A DNA stretch of 64,000 bases from Gammaproteobacteria bacterium (lineage in GTDB: Bacteria > Pseudomonadota > Gammaproteobacteria > Chromatiales > Chromatiaceae). Under the pieces are notes generated by a model. It ran no database searches, was not told the origin of the DNA, and worked only from the letters and a program-made list of their open reading frames with translations. The DNA lies in NCBI GenBank assembly GCA_030148485.1, contig JASBTJ010000053.1:62001-126000 (forward strand), given 5' to 3'. Made by a program: the position numbers and the translations under genes. This document shows, one piece after another, positions 1,650-9,283 of the stretch (position 1 is the first letter of the stretch; the number at the start of each line of letters is the position of its first letter).

Positions 1650-2291
1650 ATGCTCAACAACGTCTCCCTCTTCAGGGGATTGCCGCAGAGCGATCTGGAT
1701 ACCTTGGAGCGACATAGCGCGCACCGCACCTATCGCCGAAATACCGTGCTCATCGAACGCGGGGATGTCGGCAATTCGCTCTATGTGGTTACCGACGGCG
1801 CGGTCAAGGTTTATGTTGCCGATGCACTCGGTAAGGAAGTCATTCTGAACGAGCTGACGAAAGGCGCGTATTTCGGCGAGTTGGCCCTGCTGGGCGACGT
1901 GCCACGCTCGGCGTCGGTTGCCACCGTTACCGACACGACCGTACTCACGCTGACCAAACTGGCCTTTCAGCAGTGCTTGGCGGAATTCCCGTCCATTGCC
2001 TGGAACCTGATCGCCGCCTTGGCGGAGCGTACCCGCTATCTTACCGACGCCGTCAGCGACTTGGCGCTGCTGGACGTGTACGGTCGGTTGAGCAAACTGC
2101 TCAATGCGTCAGCGGTGACCCAAAACGGCCGCACGATCACCCCGCCCTTCACGCACCAGGATCTGGCGGACCGCGTTGCATCGTCCCGGGAAATGGTCAC
2201 CAAGATCCTCAAGGATCTCAAGCGCGGCGGGTACGTCACCAACGACGGCAAACGCTTGGTCATCGAACGCAAATTGCCCACCCATTGGTAG
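1650..2291 (+). CDS. Crp/Fnr-family transcription regulator with a cAMP-type nucleotide pocket
   Basis: The protein is 213 residues with the usual Crp layout: cyclic-nucleotide-binding beta-roll (about 10-115), long dimerisation helix (about 117-140) and C-terminal winged helix (about 165-205, recognition segment near SSREMVTKILKDL). The phosphate-binding cassette at 75-88 reads FGELAL..PRSA, keeping the Gly-Glu-Leu and Arg-Ser residues that hold the cyclic phosphate in cAMP receptors; there is no Fnr-type N-terminal Cys cluster. An open frame extends upstream, but AAGG about nine bases before ATG 1650 and the beta-roll alignment favour this start. It is divergent from trkH and lies upstream of a small exported protein and a class III cyclase, which makes cAMP or a related nucleotide a plausible ligand. 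Target genes cannot be read from the sequence. Confidence 0.85.
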   Translation: MLNNVSLFRGLPQSDLDTLERHSAHRTYRRNTVLIERGDVGNSLYVVTDGAVKVYVADALGKEVILNELTKGAYFGELALLGDVPRSASVATVTDTTVLTLTKLAFQQCLAEFPSIAWNLIAALAERTRYLTDAVSDLALLDVYGRLSKLLNASAVTQNGRTITPPFTHQDLADRVASSREMVTKILKDLKRGGYVTNDGKRLVIERKLPTHW

Positions 2292-2458
2292 GCACGCCGG
2301 GTCCCGTTGCACTCCCAATGTGAATATTACCGCCGTCGTCGGTTACTAGTTCCCTTCAGTCTGGTTTGCCACTGCGTAATCTGACCGCATGGCCGAGGAC
2401 ATGGCGACTGCATGCCCTGCCCGGTCGTACCCGCAACAGGCACATGGAGGCAGCCGTT

Positions 2459-2767
2459 ATGGAACCGCGATTTACCAGTTATCCGATTACCGCGATCGTG
2501 ATTGTAATCACGATCGTCACGTTGTGGCTGTCGGCCAACCGCGCAGAGGCCGATACGGCGACCAAATGGGAGCGTCATCAACTGCATCAGCCCTCACCCA
2601 AGTTGTTACAAATGGAGAAGCGCGGCCGGGTAACCATCTATGACGGATTGGACAACAGCGACGTCGACCGCGCCATGGACGAGCAATTCGATCGCATCGG
2701 CAGCATGATGTTCATCCACGTACGCACCAACGGCGACGAGCTCGACCTGGACGACGGTTGCGACTAG
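2459..2767 (+). CDS. Small exported or membrane-anchored protein of unknown function
   Basis: This 102-residue protein starts eight bases after a strong GGAGG (2446-2450). An N-terminal hydrophobic stretch (about residues 8-24, YPITAIVIVITIVTLWL) followed by SANRAEA could be a cleaved signal peptide or a signal anchor. The rest is hydrophilic, with an acidic C-terminal third ending DELDLDDGCD. I recognise no family. It lies between the Crp-type regulator and the CHASE2 cyclase on the same strand, so co-regulation is possible, but gaps of about 170 and 110 bases leave room for separate promoters. Confidence 0.65.
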   Translation: MEPRFTSYPITAIVIVITIVTLWLSANRAEADTATKWERHQLHQPSPKLLQMEKRGRVTIYDGLDNSDVDRAMDEQFDRIGSMMFIHVRTNGDELDLDDGCD

Positions 2768-2876
2768 GCGGCGCCTGGGCCTTGTATACGCCGATTGTCG
2801 TCGCCCTGTGGTCAGCGGCGATCTAAGATGACCGTCAGGAGCACATCACTCCCAAGGACGAAGGTGGACAAACACC

Positions 2877-5081
2877 TTGACTGCATGGCGGTGGCGACGA
2901 TTGGATGCGGCGGACGCTGGTGGCAAGTTGGCGACAGGCGTGCTGGTGGGCACGGCCTGCGCCTTGCTGGGCGTGCTGCTGTTCATCTCGCCTTGGGGTC
3001 GCGTCATTGAACAGGGCTGGGGACTGAATTGGCTGTTTCAATTGCGCGGCCCGGTGCCCGCCCCCCCGCACGTCGTGATCGTCAGTCTGGACCGCGGGTC
3101 GTCCGAGCGCCTCGGCGTCCGTCATCGACCCGACCACTGGCCGCGACGCCTTCATGCGGCGTTGATCCGACGTCTCCACGCAGCTGGCGCCCAGGCGATT
3201 GTGTTCGACCTGTGGTTCGACCGTCCCGGCCCGTTGGCCGACGACGCGGCATTCGCACGGGCAATCGGCGAGGCAGGCAACGTGTTGCTGCTCGAACGCT
3301 TGGCCAAGACAACCCTGTCCGGGCGTGGCGCATCGGAATTGGCACTGCACCAGCTGCATCCGCCGCATCCGCGTTTTGCCTACCACGCGCTGGCCAGCGG
3401 CCCGTTCACCCTGCCTAAGATCCCGGTCGCGGTAAGTCACTTCTGGACGTTCGACAAGGCTGCCGGCGACACCCCCAGCCTGGCCTCGCTGGCGCTGTTT
3501 GCCGCCTATCCTGATGCTCACGATGTGGTCCTGACGGACTGTTACCGCGGCGTCGAGCAACGGGCACCGCCCGACAATCTGCGCGGCACGGTGCAAAGCA
3601 CCTTTGCCAACCGCCAGCGCACCTGCGGCCTGGCCTCGGACACATCCGCGACCGCCCGTGTCACGACAGCGCCGTCGCCCGATCCGATGGTCGGGCGGCT
3701 ACGCGACATCTACACCGGACCGCAGAGTCGGGTACTCAATCTTTATGGACCGCCGCGTAGCATCCCCACCATCCCGTACTGGAAAATCCTGACCCCAGAC
3801 GCCGACGCGACGGCTCAGGCGACAGCCGCGCCAATCGCGGGCAGCATCGTGTTGGTCGGGATGTCGAGTCGTTCGCAACCGGACCAAGCGGACGCCTTCG
3901 TCACGCCCTACTCGGACCCGGTCAGCGGTCATGACATCGCCGGTGTGGAACTGCTGGCCACGGCGGTGGCGAACCTCGCGGACGGACGCAGCATCGCGCT
4001 ACCCGCACCAGGGTGGCAGATCGCCGCCGTGCTGCTGTTCGGGTTCGCGGTCGGCATGGTGTGCGGCGGCTTGCCGCCGATGCTCGCGGTATTGGCGACC
4101 TTGCTGGTCGGCGGTGGCTGGCTGGCGATTGCCATGATGGGCTTCACGGAGCACTACCTATGGTTGCCGCTCGCGGTGCCCCTGGCCGGTCAAATCCCGA
4201 TGGCGCTGGTGATGGGACTCGGCGTTCAGGCGGTTGCAAGCCGCTCGATACAGCGCCGCATGGGTGCTGCGGTCAGCCGTTACCTGCCGACGCACGTGGT
4301 GCGGCGCATGGGCAGGAAGGATTTTCATCCAGCCCACGAGCGCCAGGCCGTGTATGGCGTTTGTCTGAGCACCGATGCCGAGCGTTTCACCGATTTCGCC
4401 GAGGCGCTACCCCCGGACGAATTGGCCCGGCAGGTGAATCGCTACTACGCCGCCTTGTTCGCCCCGGTAACGCGCCATGGCGGCCATGTCTCGGACGTGG
4501 TGGGCGACGCGATGCTGGCCCTTTGGACCGGCCCCATGCCGTCCCTAACACTACGCCGGTCGGCTTGTCTGGCGGTGCGGGACATCCTGCAGGGCGACCC
4601 TGAGCCGCAGGTCCCAGCCCTGCTACGCACCCGCATGGGCCTGCATGCGGGCGAACTGGTGCTCTCCCACGTCGGTGCGGGTGATCATTTCGAATATCGT
4701 GCCGTGGGCGACACTGTGAACACCGCCGCGCGGCTGCAGGCCCTGAACAAGCCCCTGGGCACCTGCTGTCTGGCGTCCAGCGACGCCATGGCCGGACTGC
4801 CGGACGTGCCCGCTCGCCGACTGGGTCGCTTCGCGCTCAAGGGAAAACGTCGCCCCGTCACCGTGTACGCCCTGTGCCATGCACCGGACGCGGATTTCGA
4901 TCGCGCCTTGAGCGCACTCGAACGCCATGCGTGGCAGGCGGCATACGCCGGCTTTTCCCGGCTTGCCGCCGCCAATCCCGCGGACGGACCGGCACGATTC
5001 TTTGCCAGTCTCTGCGCCGATTACCGGGCATCGCCGCCCGCTGCTGACTGGCCCGGCGTTATCGCCGTAGCGCCTGACTGA
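2877..5081 (+). CDS. CHASE2-domain membrane sensor fused to a class III nucleotide cyclase
   Basis: The 734-residue protein has an N-terminal membrane helix (about 18-42), a periplasmic CHASE2 sensor (about 50-360), three membrane helices (about 378-455) and a cytoplasmic class III cyclase domain (about 485-650). The metal-binding aspartates D500 and D544 and the transition-state pair N615/R619 (VNTAAR) are present. The two residues that normally select adenine are not: the Lys three before the Gly-Asp is D540 (SDVVGD), and the usual Asp or Thr three before the later Gly is R608 (YRAVGD). The domain looks catalytically competent but the substrate is uncertain. The start is TTG, preceded by GAAGGTGG; no in-frame ATG precedes it. 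The gene ends 12 bases from a convergent lipoprotein gene and lies downstream of a Crp-type regulator. Confidence 0.88.
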   Translation: MTAWRWRRLDAADAGGKLATGVLVGTACALLGVLLFISPWGRVIEQGWGLNWLFQLRGPVPAPPHVVIVSLDRGSSERLGVRHRPDHWPRRLHAALIRRLHAAGAQAIVFDLWFDRPGPLADDAAFARAIGEAGNVLLLERLAKTTLSGRGASELALHQLHPPHPRFAYHALASGPFTLPKIPVAVSHFWTFDKAAGDTPSLASLALFAAYPDAHDVVLTDCYRGVEQRAPPDNLRGTVQSTFANRQRTCGLASDTSATARVTTAPSPDPMVGRLRDIYTGPQSRVLNLYGPPRSIPTIPYWKILTPDADATAQATAAPIAGSIVLVGMSSRSQPDQADAFVTPYSDPVSGHDIAGVELLATAVANLADGRSIALPAPGWQIAAVLLFGFAVGMVCGGLPPMLAVLATLLVGGGWLAIAMMGFTEHYLWLPLAVPLAGQIPMALVMGLGVQAVASRSIQRRMGAAVSRYLPTHVVRRMGRKDFHPAHERQAVYGVCLSTDAERFTDFAEALPPDELARQVNRYYAALFAPVTRHGGHVSDVVGDAMLALWTGPMPSLTLRRSACLAVRDILQGDPEPQVPALLRTRMGLHAGELVLSHVGAGDHFEYRAVGDTVNTAARLQALNKPLGTCCLASSDAMAGLPDVPARRLGRFALKGKRRPVTVYALCHAPDADFDRALSALERHAWQAAYAGFSRLAAANPADGPARFFASLCADYRASPPAADWPGVIAVAPD

Positions 5082-5093
5082 GGTCAACCGGGG

Positions 5094-5456
5094 TCATTCT
5101 TCCCAGCAGACCTCGAATTTCGCACCCCGGCTGTCGTAGAAGGTCTCGCAGATCGGGTTCACTTTCGAGCGGATCGCCACGATGGCCACGATACGCTGGA
5201 TCTCACCGCCCTTGCCCAGCCCGCGACACACCGGTGCAGAGCCCGTTTCCGAGGCCAGCCGACAGGGCGCCGCGCGTTTCAGGCCCGCGGTATCGGCGCC
5301 GACGATGTCACCCTCCGCATTGATATAGATGGCCGCGGTTGCGCCCAGGGGAAGTACCAGTGGCGGGCGATTCTTGTCTCCGGTATCGCAACCGGATACC
5401 GCGAAAGCGCTCAGCAGAACAGGTGTCGCCGCGCGACGCATTTGGAATCGGAACAT
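5094..5456 (-). CDS. Small putative lipoprotein, unknown function
   Basis: This 120-residue protein has a short charged N-terminus, a hydrophobic core and a lipobox (VSGC, lipidated Cys at 23), so export and lipid anchoring are likely. The mature part has four further cysteines (about 65, 77, 103 and 117) that could form two disulfides, and a central sequence AAIYINAEGDIVG. ATG 5456 is preceded by GGAGGT at six bases. It follows the FecR-TPR-barrel gene by 56 bases on the same strand and is probably cotranscribed with it. I recognise no family. Confidence 0.7.
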   Translation of the reverse strand: MFRFQMRRAATPVLLSAFAVSGCDTGDKNRPPLVLPLGATAAIYINAEGDIVGADTAGLKRAAPCRLASETGSAPVCRGLGKGGEIQRIVAIVAIRSKVNPICETFYDSRGAKFEVCWEE

Positions 5457-5512
5457 ATGACTACCTCCATGTTTATGACGGCCACGCACGGCCGGTCTTT
5501 CCAGAAACGCCA

Positions 5513-8500
5513 TCAGTTGAACGGCAGCGCCAGGCTCAGATACGTGGACCGGGCCGGTTGAATCTCCGGCGCCTGGGTGCCGCCTGCTGCAAAGTCCGTG
5601 TCCCGGAAATTGAAGGACCGGTCGAACAGGTTGCGGACCTGTAGGCTGACCATTCCACGCCGCTTCGGCAGGCGGTAACCGAGCTCGGCGTCGGTCAACC
5701 AGAAACGACTCTTTTCCGTATCCGGCGGTGTCAGGGTGCTGGTGTTGATACGACCATCCTGACGGTAGTAGGTCTGGGTCAGACGCGCGAACCAACCGCT
5801 CGGATGATGATAGGAGACACGGGTGGGAAAGCTGTGAGTGTTCAGCGCCAGCGGCTCATTGGCGGAGACCGAGGCACTTTGTCGCTTGCGTCGACCGTCG
5901 AACCGGTACCCGGTGGTCGCCGCGATCCGCGCCGTCGGCATCCAGGTCACATAAGCGTCGCCGCGGCGATTGATATGACGCTCTTCACCCTCCGGCCCTT
6001 GGATCGGCACATCAAGGCGCCGGTAGATCAGCTTGGCACCAATCGAGAAATCGGCGCCGATATCATGCGCGATGGCCGCCGCCACGGCCCGACTGTCGGT
6101 CCCCAGCGGATCGTCCCAGAACTGGGTAAACCCAGCCACCTGGGTCGGCTCCAGCGTCTGGTCGGACACCAGCGACCGCTGCAAGGTACGGAAGGCTGCG
6201 GCGCGAACCCGGGTTCGCGCCGACAGGTCCCACAACAACCCGAGCTTGGGATTGAACTGGTCTATCGCATAGGGCGTGGAGTCGAGCCGGTCGTAGCTGA
6301 GCCCGGCCACCAGTTGCCCTTGCCCGTGCAAGTCGAAGTAACCGTAGCCGTAGGCGTTGGCGTGGGTTTCGGTAATGTCGGTCAACACCGGCAGGGTCGC
6401 GACAACGTTCGGCCCCAAGGTAATCCGGGTGATGATGTTGTCATAGACATCATTCTCGTAATATCCACCACCCATCACCCACGGCCCGGTTGGTGCCGGG
6501 CGCAGGTACTGAAATTCCGTCAGGTAGCCCTGGTTGTCGTAGCTATGCTCACGGGTGGATACGTAGGGCGTCGATGGCAGCGGCGCGGAGCTGGCGTCGT
6601 CGCCCGATTGATCGACACGAATGACCGAGCCGAGTAGCAATCCGCCTCCCGTCAGTTGGTGGCGGATACCAAGGCGGATACTGTCCTCCTGGAGATTCTC
6701 CCGTCGATTCGCCGAGAAGGCCGTCGGATCGAAACGCAGGCCGACATCCCCCCGTTCCTGTTCGTGTCGACGCAGCTCCACCTGCACACTGGTGGCAGGA
6801 CTCAGACGATGCTGCAGAAACAGGGTGTAGATGTCTTCCGCCACGTCGCTGTTTTGCCGGAAGCCGTCGGTTTGGTAATGGAACTGCCCGGCGCTTAACG
6901 CCCAGTCGCCCTGGAGGGCCCCCACCAGGACTTCATCGCCGAGCAAACCGTCCGTGCCCGCCACCCCGGACAACTGCAACACCGTTTGGTCGCGCACGAA
7001 CAGCGGCGTGTACTCGTTGATGCCGATGGTCTGCGGCCCGGCATGGTTGAGGATATTCAGATTCGACTGAGCCAGCGCTGGGGGCACCGGGTAGAGGTTC
7101 AATGGCTGAAGCAACTGGGACTGCAGGACCTCACTGGCGCGCGCGAGCGCCTGGTGACGGTCCGCTTGCAGGGTGTCGGCACGAAACCGGTGTGCCGCGT
7201 AATCCGCCGGATCGGTACTCAAGGCGCTGGCGATGGCCTCGTCAGCCTGTTGATCGAAACCCAATTCCGCATAGATACGGGCGATGGCCGCGTTGCGCGC
7301 AGCCAGGTCCTGATCCGCGGCCAGGCCGGAGCGGTAGACACCGCGTTTCGCATTGCGCGCCAGCGCCGCTTTCAGCTCGCGCGGCGCGGCAACCGGCCGA
7401 TTGGTCGCCTGCAACAGCAGTGCGTCATAGAAATATGCGGTGGGATCCTGCGGGTCGAGCTGTTTCGCCAAGGCATATTGCACCCGGGCACGCTCGGTGC
7501 GGTTTTCCGCATCGTAGGCTTTTCCCAGATAGCTGCGCACCACGGCATTGGCCGGGGCAAGCCCGATCGCGATCTCCAATTCCCGCCGTCCGGCAGCCAG
7601 CTCACCCCGTCGGATGAGGGCAATGCCCCGGCCCAGGCGCGGCATGGCGTCGGTGGAATCAAGCGTAATGGCACGGTCGAAGGCGGCGAGGCCGGCCGTC
7701 ACCTTGCCGGATGCCAGGGAGGCGAAGCCCATCAACGTATGCCCCCGCGCGGTCCTGGGCGCCAGTTGCACTGACCGTCGGGCCGCTTGCCCGGCGGCAG
7801 CGGGGCGGCCGGTCGCAAGTGCCAGCTCGGCCTGCCTGGCCCACAGCAGCGCGTTTTTTGGGTGCAGATCGACCGCCTTTTGCACCGTGTCACGCGCCGC
7901 TTCCAGGTCGTGGTTGGCTTGCTGTGCATAGCTCAGGGCTAGCAGCCCGTCACCGCTGAATGGTTGCAGACGCACCGCGGCCTTGGCATGGGCCAGTGCC
8001 TGTGCGCGCCGATTCTCCACCACCGCAATCACCGCCAACAGCGCCTGGGCCGCACCCTGCGCCACGGCGTCCGCCGGCGCACGGGTGAGATGGGCGCGGG
8101 CCTGATCGACGTGACCCAGCTGCAACGCGGCTTGTGCCGAGCGTAACCAATCGCCCTGCCCCGCGGGACCGCCCAGCAACGGGAAATGCAAGGCCCATTG
8201 CACGCTGTCCACCGTGGTCACCGGCACTGTCAGCACTGGCGCGCGATCGGCCGGGCTCAGGGCGGACTCGCCGCTTCCCACCCGGACCAGCCCGTCAGGG
8301 TTGCGCAACGCAACCTGCCCCTCGATGACATCCAGGCGGGTCGTGCGCTCGAGAACCCGCAGGACGAACTCCGTGCCTTCCAGCCCGGCGGTACCATAGG
8401 GTGTGCGAATCTCCAGCTGTGTGGAAACCCGGCTGATCAGGTGTATGACACCATCGATCAGTTCGACCCAGAATCCCCCGCTGGGGGGTGCCTCCGGCAG

Positions 8501-8803
8501 CACCAAGGTGGTGTACTGATCGAGCCGCAACACGGTGTGATTGAACAACGCCAGCGAGGCGCGGCTGTCGCCGCCGACCCGTATCACGTCCCCGCGGCAG
8601 AAGGTGTCGTTCAAATGGGCGGGCTGCCAAGCCCCTTGGCTACCACGCTTGACCGCCAGTTCGCCCTGCAAGGACACGACGCGCGCACTCCAGACAGCGC
8701 ACGAAACCGGGCTGGAAAGCGCTGGAAACGGCGGGATACATCCCAAAAGGATCGCGAAAACCGTCCATCGCAGACGACGCGGATACTCGTCCAATGCCGA
8801 CAC
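5513..8803 (-). CDS. FecR domain - TPR repeats - outer-membrane beta-barrel fusion protein
   Basis: A 1096-residue exported protein. A signal peptide (to about 31) precedes a FecR-like domain (about 35-195, with the RTPYGTAGLEGTEF core), an array of TPR helices (about 215-560) and a C-terminal beta-barrel (about 575-1096) of TonB-receptor type with alternating aromatic strands and a late NLFDRSFNFRDTDF motif. There is no plug domain or TonB box ahead of the barrel. FecR domains normally read outer-membrane signals and TPRs bind partners, so this looks like a periplasmic scaffold tethered to its own barrel. The GTG at 8803 is only one base after GGAG; the TTG three codons later (8794) has better spacing and may be the true start. 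It runs convergently to the CHASE2 cyclase, with the lipoprotein gene between. Confidence 0.85.
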   Translation of the reverse strand: MSALDEYPRRLRWTVFAILLGCIPPFPALSSPVSCAVWSARVVSLQGELAVKRGSQGAWQPAHLNDTFCRGDVIRVGGDSRASLALFNHTVLRLDQYTTLVLPEAPPSGGFWVELIDGVIHLISRVSTQLEIRTPYGTAGLEGTEFVLRVLERTTRLDVIEGQVALRNPDGLVRVGSGESALSPADRAPVLTVPVTTVDSVQWALHFPLLGGPAGQGDWLRSAQAALQLGHVDQARAHLTRAPADAVAQGAAQALLAVIAVVENRRAQALAHAKAAVRLQPFSGDGLLALSYAQQANHDLEAARDTVQKAVDLHPKNALLWARQAELALATGRPAAAGQAARRSVQLAPRTARGHTLMGFASLASGKVTAGLAAFDRAITLDSTDAMPRLGRGIALIRRGELAAGRRELEIAIGLAPANAVVRSYLGKAYDAENRTERARVQYALAKQLDPQDPTAYFYDALLLQATNRPVAAPRELKAALARNAKRGVYRSGLAADQDLAARNAAIARIYAELGFDQQADEAIASALSTDPADYAAHRFRADTLQADRHQALARASEVLQSQLLQPLNLYPVPPALAQSNLNILNHAGPQTIGINEYTPLFVRDQTVLQLSGVAGTDGLLGDEVLVGALQGDWALSAGQFHYQTDGFRQNSDVAEDIYTLFLQHRLSPATSVQVELRRHEQERGDVGLRFDPTAFSANRRENLQEDSIRLGIRHQLTGGGLLLGSVIRVDQSGDDASSAPLPSTPYVSTREHSYDNQGYLTEFQYLRPAPTGPWVMGGGYYENDVYDNIITRITLGPNVVATLPVLTDITETHANAYGYGYFDLHGQGQLVAGLSYDRLDSTPYAIDQFNPKLGLLWDLSARTRVRAAAFRTLQRSLVSDQTLEPTQVAGFTQFWDDPLGTDSRAVAAAIAHDIGADFSIGAKLIYRRLDVPIQGPEGEERHINRRGDAYVTWMPTARIAATTGYRFDGRRKRQSASVSANEPLALNTHSFPTRVSYHHPSGWFARLTQTYYRQDGRINTSTLTPPDTEKSRFWLTDAELGYRLPKRRGMVSLQVRNLFDRSFNFRDTDFAAGGTQAPEIQPARSTYLSLALPFN

Positions 8804-9283
8804 TCCATTGCAGCATGTGGGGCAGACCGTATTCGGGCTTGTTCTGTATTTACGATCGCCCGATGAAAGTTATCGCTGCGATTCCGCCCCTGGGTGGAAT
8901 TTCGAGCCTAGGCCTGCCGGAAACATCGGTCAAGGTCCACCGAGCGACCCCGTTCCCAAAAAAGCGGTGCGTCCCTGCTCCGCATAGCTGTCGGGTAGAC
9001 CGGGCGATCACAGGTGCGGCATACCGCAATCACTTACCCTGGACACGTCCTTGTGACAGGAAGGCTAGGCCGTTCCGGCATCCCCTTGAGGTAAATAGTA
9101 CGCGGGCGCCCGGGTAATTTTCACTTGTGTGTGAAACGGGAGGACGCGTTGAAAATGCCGGGGTCTTGCGGGTCGCGCCGGGCGCACGGCAATTTCCGCT
9201 GCCGACTTTGCCAGCGGGCGGGAGCACGTGATTTGCGCCTCGATTGTCCGGCTGCTGATCGGTCAGCGCTTTGCCCAGAACTG
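8804..9283. other. Intergenic region, no confident gene
   Basis: About 480 bases separate the FecR-TPR-barrel gene (leftward) from the 3' end of the methylthioinosine phosphorylase gene (also leftward), so it should hold the promoter of the former and the terminator of the latter. Visible structure includes the 10-base palindrome CGGGCGCCCG (9103-9112) and the inverted repeat TTTCAC-N6-GTGAAA (9119-9136). GGGAGG follows at 9138-9143, then a possible rightward reading frame of 58 codons (TTG 9149 to TAG 9325) with five cysteines that runs antisense into the phosphorylase 3' end. I do not call that frame a gene. No riboswitch or tRNA is recognisable by eye. Confidence 0.5.

Follow-up and report, generated by a model that had tools for sequence, protein, structure and literature searches.

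We analyzed a 64,000-nucleotide stretch of DNA from a Gammaproteobacteria bacterium of the Chromatiaceae (contig JASBTJ010000053.1 of assembly GCA_030148485.1, positions 62,001 to 126,000 of the forward strand; hereafter the window), in which five neighbouring genes had been taken by a first-pass annotation for a candidate module that would signal from the cell envelope to transcription. All five genes were present, with Pfam matches above cut-offs for Crp, CHASE2, cyclase, FecR and TPR. The genes, their domains and the sites discussed below are as follows, in window positions:

1650-2291, + strand: Crp-family regulator, 213 amino acids (Pfam cNMP_binding 2.5e-24, HTH_Crp_2 3e-11)
2459-2767, + strand: small exported or membrane-anchored protein, 102 amino acids
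2493-2516, no strand assigned: perfect 11-bp inverted repeat with GTGA-N6-TCAC at 2498-2511, inside the small gene and with CRP-like spacing
2877-5081, + strand: CHASE2 class III nucleotidyl cyclase, 734 amino acids, its TTG start codon uncertain
2973-4055, + strand: CHASE2 sensor region, residues 33-393 (Pfam, structure model, hydropathy), predicted to be periplasmic by topology and followed by transmembrane helices
4371-4868, + strand: cyclase catalytic domain, residues 499-664 (Pfam, alignment), with Asp500/Asp544, Asn615 and Arg619 intact
4494-4496, + strand: Asp540 codon, at the position of the adenine-specifying lysine
4698-4700, + strand: Arg608 codon, at the second base-specifying position (Asp, Thr or Ser in adenylate cyclases)
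5094-5456, - strand: small lipoprotein, 120 amino acids, gene start at 5456
5513-8803, - strand: FecR-TPR-outer-membrane barrel protein, 1096 amino acids
8228-8698, - strand: FecR domain, residues 36-192 (Pfam residues 72-164, model, structural match to 4m0n)
7070-8215, - strand: TPR superhelix, residues 197-578 (Pfam, structure model)
5519-6988, - strand: predicted 22-strand beta-barrel, residues 606-1095 (structure model, structural matches)

The Crp, small-protein and cyclase genes are on the plus strand and the barrel and lipoprotein genes on the minus strand, convergent with the cyclase gene. These strands exclude a single operon, as had already been recognized. The commonest order among relatives is Crp on the minus strand, then cyclase and barrel on the plus strand; the locus in the window does not look like an operon because its barrel gene is inverted relative to that order and, judged by gene order, it is a rearranged copy of the usual arrangement. 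We also noted, at 9091-9135 and some 300 nt upstream of where the barrel gene starts, a GC-rich palindrome and, after it, the inverted repeat TTTCAC-N6-GTGAAA.

Co-occurrence and conserved order, the checks originally proposed for the module, were examined in 369 genomes sampled evenly across the class (Gammaproteobacteria). The cyclase subfamily was called at 450 bits or above, the next class of CHASE2 cyclases scoring 290 bits or below, and genes within 1.5 kb of each other were counted as adjacent. Cyclases of this subfamily were found in 38 genomes; 47 genomes had a member of the barrel family and 77 one of the Crp subfamily. This analysis revealed the barrel in all 38 cyclase genomes compared with 9 of the 331 others (Fisher P = 1.5e-43) and the Crp subfamily in 34 of the 38 compared with 43 of the 331 (P = 2.6e-22), P values that ignore the shared ancestry of genomes spanning many families. 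The barrel was adjacent to the cyclase in 31 of the 38 genomes, and Crp in 25. A scan of named genomes gave 80 loci, from records including Sedimenticola, Candidatus Thiodiazotropha, Nitrosomonas, Nitrosospira, Marinobacterium, Desulfobacterota, Nitrospirota and Rokubacteria; among the 52 with full flanks, 43 had the barrel and 32 had Crp. The expected pattern was thus strongly borne out for barrel, cyclase and Crp, whose grouping exceeds mere proximity. No further widespread operon partner, such as a phosphodiesterase, was found, the commonest other neighbour families reaching 5-6 of 46 locus groups. The inclusion of all five genes in one module did not stand: the plus-strand small protein (2459-2767) is not conserved with the rest and had no match across the 80 named loci. 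Its one homologue, 43% identical over 80 amino acids, is encoded by a gene that neighbours the Crp orthologue in one relative (G031), which indicates that the open reading frame (ORF) is a real gene; given this single homologue and the lack of matches in the 80 loci, the protein looks like a lineage-specific accessory of a few close relatives.

The barrel protein was examined by Pfam and by structure prediction. Pfam identified a FecR domain (9e-12) and many TPR matches, while the best matches to the barrel region fell below cut-off. An AlphaFold model built from 43 homologues (mean pLDDT 85.7, pTM 0.84) contains, in order, a signal helix, a beta-structured FecR domain (residues 40-192, approximately), a TPR superhelix and 22 beta-strands, and in this model the outer-membrane barrel called at first pass is clear despite the sub-cut-off Pfam scores. 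The predicted barrel matched the TonB-dependent receptors FpvA, FptA, FecA and PirA (Foldseek E down to 6e-16; VIA-align Z 17.4-19.7), and the FecR part matched the FecR-type anti-sigma factor 4m0n (Z 17.9, 132 residues, root mean square deviation 2.1). No N-terminal plug domain precedes the barrel in the predicted structure, and the linker from the last TPR helix to strand 1, only 27 residues long, leaves no space for one. We predict a plugless 22-strand barrel of the TonB-receptor type, which shares the strand number of TonB-dependent transporters and lacks their plug.

An equivalent gene pair, nsrA-cyaK, is carried on pSymB of Sinorhizobium meliloti AK21, where NsrA (1224 amino acids) combines FecR, TPR and barrel and the two genes overlap by 1 nt. 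In profile-profile comparison, the barrel and NsrA families aligned over 1038 columns at 18% identity (E 9e-50). The alignment of the cyclase family with CyaK spanned 570 columns (E 8e-54). Plain BLASTP of the barrel protein against NsrA was strong over FecR only. On these profile alignments both large proteins have a remote homologue in S. meliloti along their full length, the barrel protein in NsrA and the cyclase in CyaK. NsrA and CyaK are reported to be needed for signal perception in S. meliloti, in a pathway shown genetically (PMC7529298, PMC13001267). According to these papers and PMC10127613, the output of the CHASE2 cyclase rises when a ribosomal protein is sensed via NsrA, and Clr is the receptor for cyclic AMP (cAMP) and cyclic GMP (cGMP). 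Two observations concern other pairs of this type. On plasmid pRPC2 of Rhizobium sp. BG4, a divergent gene annotated as a Pycsar-system effector family protein (L086, 7178-7717) adjoins an NsrA/CyaK-type pair. On pSym of S. meliloti B399 (L082, 8905-11441), nsrA stops after 761 amino acids and a 649-amino-acid cyaK frame begins about 250 nt later, whereas nsrA of AK21 is full length; a deletion, a truncation or an assembly difference could account for the contrast.

We consider it about 75% probable that the locus encodes an NsrA/CyaK-type relay from envelope to transcription, running from a barrel receptor through the CHASE2 cyclase and a cyclic nucleotide to Crp. This reading draws on gene content, domain anatomy, co-occurrence, adjacency, remote homology and intact catalytic and cyclic nucleoside monophosphate (cNMP) phosphate-binding residues, all of which are observed. 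In the homologous system, the outer-membrane protein is known to be needed for gene expression that depends on cyclase and Crp. The barrel protein would lie in the outer membrane with its TPR and FecR domains exposed to the periplasm. The contact of FecR/TPR with CHASE2 of the inner-membrane cyclase would be altered by a ligand at the cell surface, or by a shift in how the barrel is occupied, which the small lipoprotein might determine; the output of cyclic nucleotide would then change, and the linked Crp would bind the nucleotide and switch its target genes. Within this scheme we infer the FecR/TPR-CHASE2 contact, the direction of signalling, the role of the lipoprotein, the ligand and the identity of the nucleotide. 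The path drawn in the first-pass annotation, from outer membrane to CHASE2, cyclic nucleotide and Crp, has its genetic precedent in the remotely homologous NsrA/CyaK/Clr system (PMC7529298, PMC13001267); its choice of outer-membrane state as the input does not, the precedent being a receptor for an extracellular ligand. Several points weigh against the relay: the Crp subfamily is missing from 4 of the 38 cyclase genomes and occurs in 43 genomes that do not have this cyclase, the genes in the window are convergent rather than operonic, full-length identity to NsrA is only about 18%, and a CRP-box search near the window genes revealed no clear Crp site.

Neighbouring genes in relatives bear on what the barrel does. 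In one relative (G023) a CHASE2 histidine kinase (L091, 10123-12321) takes the place of the cyclase after the same barrel family, and FecR genes are also found near other CHASE2 cyclases. Together with a Burkholderia operon that joins a LysM-FecR protein to a CHASE2 kinase (PMC5192318), these arrangements point to FecR-CHASE2 as a conserved coupling for which cyclase and kinase are interchangeable outputs. An alternative is that the barrel is mainly a pore for transport or export, either a PgaA-type TPR-barrel porin or a TonB-dependent importer, and that cyclase and Crp merely regulate the barrel or the metabolism of its substrate on another cue. Its fold is that of the TonB-dependent transporters named above, and TPRs joined to a barrel also occur in PgaA, for which the NCBIfam match was weak and confined to the TPR part. 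Yet the barrel is plugless, with 27 residues between TPR and strand 1, its homologue NsrA acts as a receptor, no widespread transport partner adjoins it, and the neighbour that stays constant, also when a histidine kinase provides the output, is a CHASE2 protein, as would suit an input component; we regard a transport function as unlikely. Cyclase and Crp could also form a self-sufficient one-step sensor, with CHASE2 sensing a small periplasmic ligand and the barrel linked by history or serving another function. Members of the Crp subfamily do lie beside other CHASE2 cyclases (for example in G010, G143, G259 and G358), but the barrel is tied more tightly to the cyclase (38 of 38) than Crp is (34 of 38), and other CHASE2 cyclases are themselves near FecR proteins, so we hold such a sensor to be distinctly improbable. 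Iron, other metal or siderophore signalling of the FecA/FecR kind, with the cyclase replacing the sigma factor as output and a siderophore-like ligand specificity, would fit the union, in a single chain, of a FecR domain with a barrel of the TonB-dependent-receptor type, but is very improbable given that the plug is absent, that no extracytoplasmic function (ECF) sigma factor was identified among the eight genes in and around the module to which the Pfam search was limited, and that the ligand reported for NsrA is a protein, ribosomal uL2 (PMC7529298).

The small lipoprotein was examined by profile searches. The gene follows the barrel gene on the same strand after a gap of 57 nt, and its product carries the lipobox-like sequence FAVSGC, in agreement with the original call for 5094-5456. 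Eight small proteins whose genes directly follow a barrel gene served as seeds for a profile, which recruited 33 over three rounds. Of 8679 ORFs, 47 matched the final profile at E < 0.05, and each of these lies downstream of a barrel gene at a distance of no more than about 700 nt; as the profile was built from that genomic position, its evidential weight lies in the absence of any match away from barrel genes among the 8679. A family member is encoded just downstream of at least 40 of the 75 non-redundant barrel genes, a count that includes L088 and L188, where the ORF calls were longer and exceeded the automatic distance limit. Most members start with a lipoprotein signal, and the family core reads roughly I..N.eG.l...D..Gk...PC ... 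I..I..I....kGS.C......G....CW. The window protein matched the family profile with E 0.011 in 6012 ORFs, a score reached by none of 2000 shuffles, and matched the G165 member with a BLASTP E of 1e-8 (single comparison) and a Smith-Waterman z of 13.8; on these scores it belongs to the barrel-downstream family. No family in Pfam or NCBIfam matched it. To judge from its sequences, the family described here is a previously unrecognized, hyper-divergent and fast-evolving component of the system. Because a member is also present downstream of the barrel where a histidine kinase replaces the cyclase, the lipoprotein goes with the receptor and not with the nucleotide. At L089 (4885-8562, G019) and L094 (6910-10140, G016), a different secreted protein of 266-290 amino acids is found downstream of the barrel in the lipoprotein's place.

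We also examined the residues that bear on the identity of the messenger. The cyclase (Pfam CHASE2 8e-29, Guanylate_cyc 2e-6) has the features of CHASE2 receptor cyclases of the CyaK/CyaD type, namely CHASE2, a class III domain, the metal-binding pair Asp500/Asp544 and Asn615/Arg619. Its base-specifying positions are Asp540 and Arg608, where CyaK has Lys/Ser and most of the remaining CHASE2 and class III cyclases in these genomes have Lys/Thr. The window has the Asp/Arg pair, as do 72 of the 80 named loci, a count biased by one scan pattern that contained the Asp; a profile search made without that pattern gave 31 sequences, the window's among them, and 30 of the 31 have the pair. It is neither the Lys with Asp, Thr or Ser of adenylate cyclases nor the combination of guanylate cyclases, in which Glu replaces Lys and the second position holds a small residue or Cys (PMC4215837). 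The cyclase orthologue of G019 (L089, 8767-11016) has divergent pocket motifs (VQVTEFRAD, FVYSIVGDSANT), possibly with changed specificity or activity.

Alignment of the Crp protein with Escherichia coli CRP revealed that the equivalents of G71, E72, R82, S83 and R123 are kept, as are the helix-turn-helix contacts R180 and E181, with R185 replaced by Lys. The base contacts differ: T127 is Leu in 50 of 51 sequences and S128 is Thr in 47 of 51. The cyclic-nucleotide cassette, first described as canonical, is so for the phosphate/ribose residues and R123 but not for T127 and S128. The catalytic and cNMP-phosphate residues are thus intact, whereas the base-specifying residues of both proteins depart from the cAMP standard. 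Since the cyclase has Asp/Arg in place of Lys/Thr and Crp is without Thr127, the messenger may be other than cAMP. An acidic residue at S128, resembling the cGMP-binding Asn-Glu pair of XC_0249 (PMC3770947), was considered and dropped, as the residue aligns to position 129 of E. coli CRP. Elsewhere in the same genome there is a second Crp with T127/S128 kept and a Lys/Asp cyclase, and because these standard proteins coexist with the pair studied here, a separate signalling channel is possible. Against this, the alignment identifies Leu127 as a trait of the Crp subfamily even where there is no Asp/Arg cyclase. We put forward only tentatively an insulated non-cAMP channel (using, for example, cGMP or a pyrimidine cNMP) beside the ordinary cyclase and CRP, in which the lipoprotein would be a removable plug or ligand-specific gate of the plugless barrel.

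Candidate Crp sites were sought in the window and across relatives. The inverted repeat at 2493-2516 is only a candidate Crp site: chance alone would give about one GTGA-N6-TCAC per window, and the example at 2498-2511 does not exceed that expectation. Near-perfect TGTGA-N6-TCACA (9-10 of 10 positions) was identified upstream of 6 of 59 barrel genes, mostly at Nitrosomonas-type loci, compared with 0.5 expected from mononucleotide shuffles only, an excess that is suggestive and that we do not use as support. Three Nitrosomonas-type loci (L124, L136 and L143) have a perfect TGTGA-N6-TCACA between cyclase and barrel, upstream of the barrel gene, a placement that suggests Crp control of the barrel gene in such loci. 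No Rfam RNA was matched within the window. At its start (1-1418, - strand), a gene named by eye as a TrkH-like potassium transporter is interrupted by an in-frame TAG (789-791), either a nonsense mutation or a sequence error.

The locus shares parts with several known systems. As in FecA-FecR-FecI (Fec/Fpv) signalling, a FecR domain and a barrel of the TonB-dependent-receptor type would relay a signal across the envelope; here, in contrast, FecR and a predicted plugless barrel are joined by TPRs in one polypeptide, and the output is a cyclase and Crp instead of an ECF sigma factor. In the RcsF-OMP-IgaA system, a small lipoprotein and an outer-membrane barrel signal to an inner-membrane regulator, and the lipoprotein here may act similarly, to judge by its position alone. 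The Campylobacterota CHASE2 adenylate cyclase cluster differs in having a phosphodiesterase and a separate TPR protein, and the available part of its description has no linked Crp or lipoprotein (PMC9239204). The Burkholderia BiofilmReg operon (PMC5192318) likewise pairs an exported FecR-domain protein with an inner-membrane CHASE2 sensor, with LysM-FecR in place of the barrel and a CHASE2 histidine kinase and response regulator in place of cyclase and Crp.

NsrA/CyaK/Clr has the same FecR-TPR-barrel protein adjoining a CHASE2 class III cyclase and a receptor of the Crp family, and a receptor-cyclase-Crp path is in kind already known from it. The system described here differs in the usual linkage of the Crp gene to that of the cyclase, in a small lipoprotein encoded after the barrel and in an Asp/Arg pocket where CyaK has Lys/Ser; sequence identity is low, and no plant host is implied. 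New here are the predicted plugless 22-strand barrel, the lipoprotein family, the Asp/Arg pocket with a Crp that is without Thr127, and the exchange of kinase for cyclase. The unrecognized, fast-diverging lipoprotein and the conserved non-standard pocket make the identity of the messenger and the crossing of two membranes directly testable. A pathway described from a legume symbiont would belong to a widespread class that extends to sulfur-oxidizing symbionts, ammonia oxidizers and other environmental bacteria, usually with the transcription factor encoded alongside.

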